Assembly (NCBI RefSeq): GCF_003002825.1
Contig: NZ_PVTE01000018.1
Coordinates: forward strand, 1-64,000
Source: Spirosoma oryzae
GTDB taxonomy: Bacteria > Bacteroidota > Bacteroidia > Cytophagales > Spirosomataceae
Length of the DNA stretch: 64,000 bases
Direction of reading: 5' to 3'
In this document: positions 20,471-63,940 of the stretch, in pieces
Numbering within the stretch: position 1 is the first letter of the stretch
How the letters are laid out: every line of letters starts with the position of its first letter
The notes under the pieces: model-generated
Database searches by the model: none
What the model was told of the DNA's origin: nothing
What the model saw: the letters and a program-made list of their open reading frames with translations, nothing else
Translations under genes and position numbers: made by a program

Positions 20471-20556
20471 AAAAATTGGTGCCAACGGCCCACCGCCGGC
20501 GTTTGCTTTGGTTGATAAACCGGACGTGGGCATCCGGCAGGTCTTTAGTCAGTATT

Positions 20557-20639
20557 TGGTTTACAGTATACGGTTCACGGTTGTTGCACGATTGCTGACC
20601 GGCCGTAAACCGAAAACTGTAAACCGAATACCGTAAACT
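20557..20639. repeat. Family A intergenic inverted repeat (copy A1)
   Basis: Left arm at 20557-20580 (GGTTTACAGTATACGGTTCA...) and right arm at 20603-20639 (CCGTAAACCGAAAACTGTAA...) are imperfect complements (about 20 of 23 positions), with a 20-nt centre. It lies between rplY and prs and is the same element seen at seven other loci in the window. Confidence 0.8.
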
Positions 20640-24532: not shown

Positions 24533-24619
24533 TTGTCATCCCGAGCCTGCGAGGGATCTTCAGTAAAAGCAAAATAAATTGGCTGTTTCCGAAGATCCCT
24601 CGCAGGCTCGGGATGACAA
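24533..24619. repeat. Palindromic element F, 29-bp perfect arms
   Basis: TTGTCATCCCGAGCCTGCGA continuing to GGGATCTTC (24533-24561) is repeated exactly as its reverse complement at 24591-24619, with a 29-nt AT-rich spacer. It is immediately downstream of a terminator and is not needed for termination; it looks like a mobile palindrome. Confidence 0.8.
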
Positions 24620-34500: not shown

Positions 34501-34686
34501 TACTTCAGCCTGAAAGATGAAGATGCCAAACGGGAAGCGATGCTGGCCGAACGCGCCCGGTTAATCCAGAAAAACCTGGCGGCTAAAGCCGGTGGCGCAC
34601 CGACCGTCCGCCCAACTTTCCGCCGGATGCGGATGTGGCATTGCGAAGACATCGAAGGCGTTATGGCAGAAGGGGAAGAAAAATAG
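31594..34686 (+). CDS. Large two-domain amidohydrolase-family protein, exported
   Basis: 1030 residues from the ATG at 31594 (MRKHVLSGLFAIAFASGAFAQ), a clear signal peptide; a longer frame from 31546 lacks one. Two amidohydrolase-like halves. The N-terminal half (~25-430) has LLVRDGRIEAIG and KRIYPALVELDSDYG at the place where active enzymes have a metal-binding HxH, so it is probably non-catalytic. After an Ala/Thr-rich linker (~525-570) the C-terminal half has an intact DEHSHIA (His 646, His 648), SQLLHGSANAIGG, TCHSY, INSDDAEMARR and GSIKAGKDADLVVW, as in imidazolonepropionase-like hydrolases. It is followed by a related single-domain gene. Substrate unknown. Confidence 0.9.
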   Translation: MRKHVLSGLFAIAFASGAFAQTTFPQNGVHDQRMGLYAFTNATIVVDPKTTLQNATLLVRDGRIEAIGSDVKLPTGVVATDLKGKRIYPALVELDSDYGMPEVKRQPGGGRGNPQLESNKKGAYYWNQAVQPENDASLLFTGSSTKADELRKLGYGAALTHPHDGIIRGTGTLVTLADDRENMVVLKPNATMHYSFNRGTSNQTYPNSMMGAVALIRQALYDADWYKRGGSNQQENLSLAALNRNQNLPVIFDVTDKLGVLRADKIGDEFNKQYIIRSGGDDYQRIDEIKATGATLIVPVNFPQPYDVEDPWDADNVSVAELKHWEMAPMNAGKLAAANIPFAITTAGLRNKTEFWANLRKAIENGLTEEQALAALTTVPARLINAGDLVGTLKKGSLANFIITSGNLFSPDNVIYENWIRGKQYIVGQQVVQDPRGIWNLTVGNQPPMKLTINGKSAEKPEFQLMADTTKLSPKVAVNGDFVTIQVQLDKKKPGTTRLTGYRTGNTIKGDGETPDGKQVSWTATRTGDAPAPVSTTATSSTATSATATQGQLTTTLPASATAVVYPFVGMGNAKKPQAETMLIRNATVWTNETDGPRGNGVLQNADVLVTNGKIAQVGKGLTAPAGARVIDGTGKHLTNGIIDEHSHIALLSVNEGSQSSTAEVRMADVVNSEDVNIYRQLAGGVTTSQLLHGSANAIGGQSAIVKLKWGEAPDAMLIKGADGFIKFALGENVKQSNWGDAARIRFPQTRMGVEQVYMDHFMRAKEYAKGWDTYNKLSAKDKAKATAPRRDIELDALAEILAKKRFITCHSYVQSEINMLMKVADSLGFKVNTFTHILEGYKVADKMAKHGAGGSSFADWWAYKMEVHDAIPYNAALMKSQGVTVSINSDDAEMARRLNQEAAKAVEYGGVNEEDAWKMVTLNPAKLLHLDNRLGSIKAGKDADLVVWNAHPLSIYARPDYTIIDGAVYFSLKDEDAKREAMLAERARLIQKNLAAKAGGAPTVRPTFRRMRMWHCEDIEGVMAEGEEK

Positions 34687-34810
34687 GTTTTCAGTTTTCG
34701 ATTTACGGTTTTCGGTGGCTACTGCCGGTTGTCCAATTGTAATAGAGGGCGATGGTCTACACCACCGAAAGCTGTAAACCGTAAACCGAATACCGTAAAC
34801 CGTAAACCGA
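34687..34810. repeat. Family A intergenic inverted repeat (copy A4)
   Basis: Left arm 34687-34717 and right arm 34763-34810, the latter with several CCGTAAACCGAATACCGTAAA-type units in tandem. It lies between the two amidohydrolase-family genes and ends 2 bp before the second ATG. Confidence 0.8.
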
Positions 34811-52073: not shown

Positions 52074-52144
52074 TACCCCCCCAGCCCCCTGAAGGGGGAG
52101 CATTCCGCAAATGAACCACTCCCCCTTCAGGGGGCTGGGGGGTA
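52074..52144. repeat. Family D palindromic element (copy D1)
   Basis: Perfect 26-bp arms (52074-52099 and 52119-52144) built on CCCCCCAGCCCCCTGAAGGG, with a loop containing CATTCCGC. The loop is also conserved (in reverse orientation) in copy D2. Lies between the small-protein gene and hmuT. Confidence 0.85.
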
Positions 52145-53109: not shown

Positions 53110-53226
53110 AATTTACGGTTTATGGTATTCGGTTTACGGTGCGAGACGTGTAAACGTCCACCTGGCTTCTTACCTGTAACAAATGCCGTATACTGAATAC
53201 CGTAAACCGAATACCATAAACTGTAC
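53110..53226. repeat. Family A intergenic inverted repeat (copy A5)
   Basis: Left arm 53110-53141 (GAATTTACGGTTTATGGTAT...) and right arm 53185-53226 (GCCGTATACTGAATACCGTA...). Fills the gap between hmuT and hmuU and ends 7 bp before the hmuU ATG. Confidence 0.8.
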
Positions 53227-54322: not shown

Positions 54323-54354
54323 ACGATCAGGGCTGTTAAGTTCTAGCCTGTTTA

Positions 54355-54452
54355 CCCGGCAGCGGCCGTCCGTCCCAGCCCCCTGAAGGGGGAGTGGTTT
54401 CTTCGCGGAATGCTCCCCCTTTAGGGGGCTGGGACGGACGGCCGCTGCCGGG
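54355..54452. repeat. Family D palindromic element (copy D2)
   Basis: About 40-bp arms (54355-54394 and 54413-54452) with one mismatch, built on the same CCCAGCCCCCTGAAGGGGG core as D1. The loop TTCTTCGCGGAATG read in reverse complement matches the D1 loop at most positions, so the element sits in opposite orientation. Confidence 0.85.
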
Positions 54453-54532
54453 TGGTTCGGCCGAAGTAAATTTGGCTTCTGGTAGTATCAAATCAAGAAC
54501 TTAAGAGCCCTAGGGTAGACGATGGCCCCGTA

Positions 54533-58708: not shown

Positions 58709-58790
58709 TCGGGAAGTCGTCTGGAGTAGACAAGGATAACGGTTTCTACTGCCCCGCCGGTTCCGAGTTTACTAGACAGGATTTTTTTAT

Positions 58791-58869
58791 TGGACAGGAT
58801 TACAGGATGGACAGGATGTATTATCAATTTGTCTAAAATCAAATCCTGTCCATCCTGTAATCCTGTCCA
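58791..58869. repeat. Palindromic element G, 27-bp perfect arms
   Basis: TGGACAGGATTACAGGATGG plus ACAGGAT (58791-58817) and its exact reverse complement at 58843-58869, spacer 25 nt. The arm itself is built from repeated ACAGGAT units. Lies between the EamA gene end and the helicase start. Confidence 0.8.
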
Positions 58870-58875
58870 TGAAAA

Positions 58876-63367: not shown

Positions 63368-63886
63368 CCAATGCAATACGAGTTGTCTTATCGCGCCAGC
63401 CTTCGGGCCGGTGAGGAAAGTCCGGGCAGCGCAGAGCGCCATACTTCCTAACGGGAAGGCAGCCGACTGGCGACGGTCGGCTGACAGACAGGGCAACAGA
63501 AAATATACCGCCGATTTTTAATGGCGAATGAATGAATGAGTGAATGAGTGAATAGCTCCGCGAGAACGTTACTGGACGCGCCAGCTATTCACTCATTCGC
63601 TCATTCGCTCATTCACTCATTGATTCTGGTAAGGGCGAACCGGTGGGGTAAGAGCCCACCGCCCGGCGGGTGACCGACGGGGCACGGTAACCCTTATGGG
63701 CTGAAAGACCAAATAAGCGTCGGACGCGCGGCTGCTCGTCGCCAGCAGCCTGGTTTCGGCCGGGTGAAAACCGACGCGGGTAGGTCGAACGAGGTGTCCG
63801 GGTGACTGGCATCCCAGATAAATGATAAGACGGCTGGCTTTACGGCTGGTCGACAGAACCCGGCTTATAGACTCGTACTGCATTGG
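63368..63886 (+). ncRNA. rnpB: RNase P RNA (bacterial type A) with expanded P12
   Basis: Catalytic RNA that trims tRNA 5' ends. Ends pair as P1: CCAATGCAATACGAGT (63368-63383) with ACTCGTACTGCATTGG (63871-63886). Conserved blocks: GAGGAAAGTCCGGGC, GGCAACAGAAAATATACCGCC, GTAAGAGCCCACCG-type stretch, and CAGAACCCGGCTTATA near the end. Length 519 nt, longer than usual (~350-420), because the region between ACCGCC and GTAAGGGCGAACCGG carries an extra hairpin of repeated octamers (63526-63621), in the place of the variable P12 stem. A terminator follows. Confidence 0.93.
63526..63621 (+). repeat. Octanucleotide-repeat hairpin inside rnpB
   Basis: Left arm 63526-63557 contains AATGAATG, AATGAGTG, AATGAGTG and then AATAGCT; the right arm 63583-63621 is the complementary set with ATTCACTC/ATTCGCTC units. 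Of 32 paired positions 29 are Watson-Crick, one more is a G-U wobble and two are mismatches. The loop contains CGCGAGAAC...GACGCG. Confidence 0.9.
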
Positions 63887-63891
63887 TTTTT

Positions 63892-63940
63892 CAACTCCCC
63901 GGCTAACAGATCCGCGCTGTCAGCCGGGGAGTTGTTTGTT
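63892..63940 (+). terminator. Terminator of rnpB
   Basis: CAACTCCCCGGCTaACA pairs with TGTcAGCCGGGGAGTTG (63892-63908 with 63918-63934), followed by TTTGTTTG and a T6 run at 63946-63951. Confidence 0.85.

Follow-up and report, generated by a model that had tools for sequence, protein, structure and literature searches.

The P12 helix of the RNase P RNA gene (rnpB) of Spirosoma oryzae ends in a long hairpin with octamer-repeat arms, and it is likely that dispersed palindromes have used this helix again and again as a site where they are tolerated, the insert being a copy of one dispersed family. The hairpin occupies the apex of P12, is palindromic, resembles hairpins dispersed through the same genome, has counterparts that recur across the rnpB tree and is unlike the P12s of some close relatives. 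Positions given here refer to the window, that is, the whole stretch of 64,000 nucleotides that was analysed, and the features of the gene are collected in Table 1.

The gene matches the class A RNase P RNA family (RF00010) at 236.6 bits against a gathering score of 100 (E 3.4e-77) and along all 367 positions of the covariance model (1-367). By score and full length it belongs to that class, and its core is intact, as an earlier note on this DNA had held. It gives the single RF00010 match in the whole genome, so that the copy number of rnpB is one, and its core sits on a short end branch (0.0016) in the core tree described below. In the covariance-model alignment the octamer hairpin is inserted at the P12 apex, where model positions 136 and 137 flank it; together with the inverted repeat, the tandem repeats and the fold, this confirms the octamer-repeat hairpin within P12 that the note had recognized and the placement that it had wished to see checked against a covariance model. 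The inverted repeat pairs 63526-63557 with 63583-63614 over 32 nt at 91% complementarity, comprising 29 Watson-Crick pairs, two G-U and one A-C; the earlier count of 29 pairs was correct, and its one wobble becomes two. RNA folding of 63505-63633 yielded -62.3 kcal/mol with a z of -8.93, a value equalled by none of 200 shuffles, and with the pairing counts this upholds the suggestion that the helix is retained. The hairpin lies in the interval first assigned to it, 63526-63621, within a full P12 that is slightly larger. Occurrences of GAATGARYGAATGA with up to two mismatches number ten in the window, every one within 63526-63626 (control, over 100 shuffles: mean 1.34, largest 7). A second, smaller insertion relative to the model, 25 nt at 63727-63751 after model position 245, is non-octameric.

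Table 1. rnpB, the parts of its enlarged P12 and the adjoining inverted repeat, in window positions
Feature	Position	Strand	Basis or remark
rnpB	63375..63883	+	RF00010 match
Enlarged P12	63511..63629	+	119 nt between ACCG and TAAGGGCGAA; anchored extraction, covariance model, fold
P12 5' arm	63526..63553	+	3.5 copies of GAATGAGT (Tandem Repeats Finder)
P12 3' arm	63587..63621	+	4.4 copies of ATTCACTC (Tandem Repeats Finder)
Terminal motif GGCGAATGA	63523..63531	+	Also in four congeners' P12s and five grpE-dnaJ spacers; motif picked after inspection of those very sequences
Apical motif GCGCCAGC, complement GCTGGCGC	63578..63585	+	Common to dispersed hairpins; motif picked after inspection of those very sequences
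Inverted repeat then T-rich run	63892..63934	+	18-nt arms, 94% complementary; probable rnpB terminator

Among 149 genomes searched, which included the own genome and 35 other congeners, rnpB was found in 145, and P12 could be parsed in 141 genes, the own one included and the broken G100 copy, G099, G108 and G147 left out. Alignment across relatives, a check named in the earlier note, revealed a bimodal distribution of P12 length: 103 of 141 fall within 8-40 nt and 38 within 54-202 nt. The enlarged P12 of this gene is thus not unique. Within the genus (36 genomes), 26 carry a long P12, seven have 8 nt (CCGAAAGG) and three have 16-17 nt; as ten of 36 genomes stand at 8-17 nt, the long helix cannot count as an ordinary conserved P12. 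Twelve genomes of other genera in the same family and order have long P12s too (G037, G042, G052, G060, G072, G077, G081, G088, G094, G118, G142 and G146). The two arms pair over 22-49 positions in 37 of the 38 enlarged P12s; the exception, G081, pairs at 8 positions only, so not every enlarged P12 is a repeat hairpin. Scanning genome contigs for CACTCATT adjoining the 3' P12 boundary returned 27 stretches, ten of them in rnpB: seven with octamer-repeat arms, one with a single octamer (L309) and two ordinary P12s. The octamer-bearing ones belong to Spirosoma (4), Fibrella (2) and Hymenobacter (2), and by this pattern scan the two Hymenobacter loci (L291 and L296) show an octamer-armed P12 in another genus. 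Two congeners have peculiarities of their own. At the apex of the G003 P12 (L034) lie some 90 nt of unrelated sequence, and in G033 a short contig (L064, contig C646) yields a pair of RF00010 matches some 500 bases from each other, the weaker at only 54 bits, which may reflect a decayed duplicate or faulty assembly.

To follow P12 through descent, we used a tree of rnpB cores from which P12 was left out (141 rows, 340 columns), a quick build in which 57 of 137 inner branches are open and which came with long-branch warnings. On this tree the long or short state of P12 requires 15 changes, at least ten of these changes being forced by starred (well-supported) branches, compared with 33.8 changes for shuffled labels. 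Among genomes G000-G090, 24 pairs have a core identity of at least 0.93, and several of them are unlike at P12. The own genome (G000) and G022 share a core identity of 0.976 and have P12s of 119 and 81 nt that are 45% alike; the corresponding values are 0.965 with 99 and 17 nt for G025/G029, 0.957 with 8 and 113 nt for G008/G013, and 0.944 with 54 and 120 nt for G042/G088. The same hairpin is kept (91-97% alike) in G001/G019, G004/G021/G028, G026/G035 and G037/G072, and some other close pairs keep one common short loop.

Hairpins of the same kind are abundant elsewhere in these genomes. A blastn search of the own genome with the P12 hairpin, in which the best 40 of 62 candidates were scored, gave at least 89 aligned pieces at at least 40 places including the query itself (E <= 10). 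The search for other such palindromes that the earlier note had in mind thus found relatives at at least 39 other places, at least 24 of them at E <= 0.001 and the best at 8.6e-15. All 18 of these other places that were read are hairpins, of about 74-130 nt with limits set by eye; 14 lie between called ORFs and four reach across an open-frame edge, ORFs being called by a simple script, and copies often stand directly between a stop codon and the next start codon. Every P12 type tried, four in all, is found again in its own genome, the aligned pieces including self numbering at least 40 (G000), 54 (G017), 51 (G021) and 20 (G032); with some 25 candidates scored per genome, these and the following piece counts are lower bounds. 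The types are not private to one genome. The G017 type occurs in G005 (at least 54 pieces), G013 (at least 36), G010 (at least 24) and G007 (at least 19); G007 and G010 have minimal P12s. The G021 type is found in G018 (at least 71), G017 (at least 61), G000 (at least 42) and others, compared with at least 51 in G021, and the G032 type in G017 (at least 22, compared with at least 20 in G032). Of the 36 genomes, 25 had no match at E 0.001 to the G017 type, 11 none to the G021 type and 26 none to the G032 type. We conclude that on many occasions P12 has gained a hairpin, lost it or had it rewritten, the types involved being those resident in the host.

Composition ties the P12 inserts to the dispersed copies and sets them apart from native P12s. 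The insert has the three properties by which we define a dispersed hairpin family here, namely arms of 7-8-nt repeats, a G-rich 5' arm and relatives in the same genome. G outnumbers C in the 5' arm of 34 of 38 enlarged P12s and of all 30 spacers described below, but of only 5 of 70 short P12s of 14-40 nt, 57 of which have more C than G; this asymmetry, opposite to that of the short native helix, favours insertion over native helix growth. The sequence GCTGVCGC or its complement stands at the apex of 9 of 38 enlarged P12s, against 0.15 expected; own copies have it in 6 of 18 cases (0.06) and high-scoring G017 copies in 9 of 15 (0.03). A terminal GGCGAAHGA is present in 5 of 38 enlarged P12s (0.03) and 5 of 30 grpE-dnaJ spacers (0.013); both motifs were picked after inspecting those very sequences and the expectations come from mononucleotide shuffles. 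Since most enlarged P12s have no apical (29 of 38) or no terminal motif (33 of 38), descent of all from one ancestral element is not established. The octamer-hairpin load of a genome is related to its P12 state (26 enlarged, 10 short; Mann-Whitney p 0.0005), a test that ignores relatedness, scored about 24 candidates per genome and is not part of our main evidence. Genomes with a minimal P12 also carry hairpins, of other types.

Further palindromes were seen in the window. Those at 20552-20631, 34686-34801 and 53114-53225 have heptamer-like arms (ACCGTAA/TTACGGT), one lying between called ORFs and two overlapping a called ORF start. GC-rich palindromes at 52077-52142 and 54354-54453, both between called ORFs, have CCCAGCCCCCTGAAGGGGGAG in common and are perhaps another dispersed family. 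Another palindrome between called ORFs (24533-24619) has 41-nt arms (TTGTCATCCCGAGCCTGCGAGGGATCTTC...), and an inverted repeat at 58785-58875, with 33-nt arms of 9-nt tandem units (TGGACAGGA), falls almost wholly inside the start of a called ORF. In other genomes, a GC-rich element resembling GACCGGGCCGCCGG is nested in octamer hairpins of two spacers (L257 in G005, L250 in G030) and of one P12 (L065 in G034).

A second site occupied by such hairpins is the spacer between two genes that we take, from sequence motifs, to be grpE and dnaJ. In the own genome the spacer hairpin is at L115:1501-1594. A dnaJ query matched in 33 of 36 congeners, the own genome included, and all 30 loci that were returned and read (L228-L257) have a long hairpin in this spacer of 61-111 nt, with fold z values between -3.4 and -16.1 relative to mononucleotide shuffles, weakest in G007 and G010. 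Arm types vary by species (GAATGAGT, GAAAGAGY, TGAATGAT, GTGTAGAG and unrepeated ones), and species with a short P12 also have the hairpin. Its presence in the spacer is kept although the sequence turns over. P12 and spacer of one genome are often of different types, with no 7-mer sharing at all (0.00) in G021, G024 and G032; mean sharing of a P12 was 0.156 with its own spacer and 0.083 with other spacers (permutation p 0.0004, n 22, relatedness ignored). The persistent occupation of this spacer suggests a possible operon role for such hairpins.

These observations are best explained by several families of dispersed palindromic elements in Spirosoma, with the P12 insert copied from one of them. 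Such an element would measure about 60-130 nt and consist of two arms, mostly of imperfect 7-8-nt repeats with the 5' arm G-rich, often with GCTGVCGC at its apex, and would lie mostly between neighbouring genes. The P12 and dispersed copies probably share a common origin; simple octamer arms can also look alike by convergence, which counts against it. The likely route into P12 would be insertion or conversion. Once there, the palindrome would fold by itself and stack on the base of P12, and since the tip of P12 is peripheral and the palindrome self-folding, we propose that RNase P RNA tolerates it, presumably with a near-neutral effect. The accessible part of the source describes the role of P12 as variable and sometimes dispensable (PMC2858038). 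tmRNA served as a control: in 35 of 36 congeners it spans 372-375 nt, and the remaining one, the incomplete genome G022, has no match over the cut-off; this constant length indicates that palindrome invasion is not general to RNA genes. Concerning movement, we identified neither a mobilising enzyme nor a target duplication for the hairpins. The Y1 transposase family PF01797 has one match (36.8 bits) in the own genome and none in G001, G003, G015, G019, G022, G030 and G031, all hairpin-bearing congeners; Y1 transposases do not track the hairpins across these seven, which makes RAYT or IS200-type mobilisation less probable.

The earlier note had instead likened the hairpin to cyanobacterial tandem repeats, implying that native P12 grew in place by short tandem repeat slippage and that its other arm followed, so that the helix was kept. 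Arms made of tandem octamers fit such growth, as does the trio G004, G021 and G028, which keeps its repeat type and shows two independent, pair-keeping double changes. Slippage is nevertheless improbable in our judgement, given a strand asymmetry opposite to that of short P12s, motifs common to P12s and dispersed copies, similar hairpins elsewhere in the genome and P12s that are unlike at 96-98% core identity, and the proposed expansion of a native helix was not borne out. Least plausible of all is a lineage-specific extension conserved for RNase P function, such as protein or substrate binding. It is largely refuted by the turnover of the sequence and by close relatives with minimal P12 loops.

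An RNA-level role deserves somewhat more weight, though it too is unlikely as the principal explanation. P12 and intergenic hairpins might be maintained as RNase III sites or stability elements, with P12 cut and RNase P RNA in two pieces. The helix is long and near-perfect, the genome encodes RNase III (TIGR02191, 204.8 bits), and cutting of the long P12 by this enzyme would be possible by analogy with Coxiella, where, in the accessible part of the report, RNase III excises the 23S rRNA intervening sequence and the fragmented rRNA is functional (PMC4990558). The hairpin found in each of the grpE-dnaJ spacers read would also be in keeping with such a role. Mismatched arm positions of enlarged P12s are more often G-U than A-C (66 vs 44, p 0.045), a weak excess that drops to 18 vs 9 (p 0.12) when counted by genome and to 21 vs 13 (p 0.23) in the spacers, compared with 26 vs 8 (p 0.003) in short P12s. 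Six comparisons of close relatives contained, besides the two independent double changes, five single pair-keeping and seven pair-breaking differences, and ten of 36 genomes do without a long P12. RNA-level constraint on the long arms is thus weak, and most of their pairing can be inherited from the arriving palindrome. A role of this kind does not exclude an origin from dispersed palindromes. A bolder combination, which we hold to be rather doubtful, would see the hairpins as a structure-conserved, sequence-free class whose arms are repeatedly rewritten by DNA-level copying from hairpins of the same genome, with P12 and the grpE-dnaJ spacer as fixed docking sites and RNase III cutting P12 to give a two-piece RNase P RNA in species with a long P12. 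Repeated reuse of P12 by dispersed palindromes remains the reading that we prefer. Small palindromes then appear to have entered an essential single-copy ribozyme gene time and again and rewritten it at one helix, and the short, filled and differently filled P12s of close relatives form a natural series for studying hairpin spread without a known transposase. This series also bears on how much a ribozyme tolerates and on whether long inserts give a split RNase P RNA.

Several known systems invite comparison. STRR repeats in rnpB of heterocyst-forming cyanobacteria were reportedly described by Vioque in 1997. The likeness, drawn from the title of that study alone, lies in short tandem repeats within rnpB; in P12 the repeats differ in building both arms of a single palindrome, which pair with each other, and this palindrome has relatives throughout the genome. 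Intervening sequences are held by helices 25 and 45 of 23S rRNA, the Coxiella element being 428 nt long with a 28-bp stem, according to the accessible part of the source (PMC4990558). They resemble the P12 insert in that a hairpin sits in an essential RNA, within one of its peripheral helices; the P12 insert is shorter than 428 nt and offers no room for the Coxiella ORF. REPs of the GTAG and CGTC families are short palindromes in high copy number, mostly between genes; they are 20-40 bp long, their stems measure 5-13 bp, and a GTAG or CGTC tag is left unpaired at one end. The CGTC family has no known transposase and is present in Bacteroidetes among others, as far as the accessible part of the source describes (PMC3733652). 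Set beside that description, the hairpins studied here match in copy number and mostly intergenic position (at least 39 other places; 14 of 18) and differ in their far longer arms and in the lack of a terminal tag by eye, which places them outside REPs as defined by stem and tag. The apical GCGTCAGC does contain CGTC, but at the apex.

A word search of titles and abstract starts in the open-licence literature found no hairpins of this kind described in Bacteroidota or in P12. The closest counterpart is found in Rickettsia, whose palindromic elements (RPEs) are dispersed palindromic repeats of 105-146 bp that occur inside RNA genes, including those of M1 RNA and tmRNA, with a perhaps neutral effect, by the accessible part of the source (PMC2229807). 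Likened by that description, both are dispersed palindromes inside the RNase P RNA gene; the P12 hairpins differ in belonging to another phylum, in their 7-8-nt repeat arms, in sparing tmRNA and in being of several types at one site in different species. Palindromes in rnpB are as such already known, with Rickettsia palindromic elements as the precedent; apparently new, as far as our searches show, are the Bacteroidota setting, the repeat-armed type of element, a single helix whose content turns over repeatedly and the link to a persistently occupied operon spacer.
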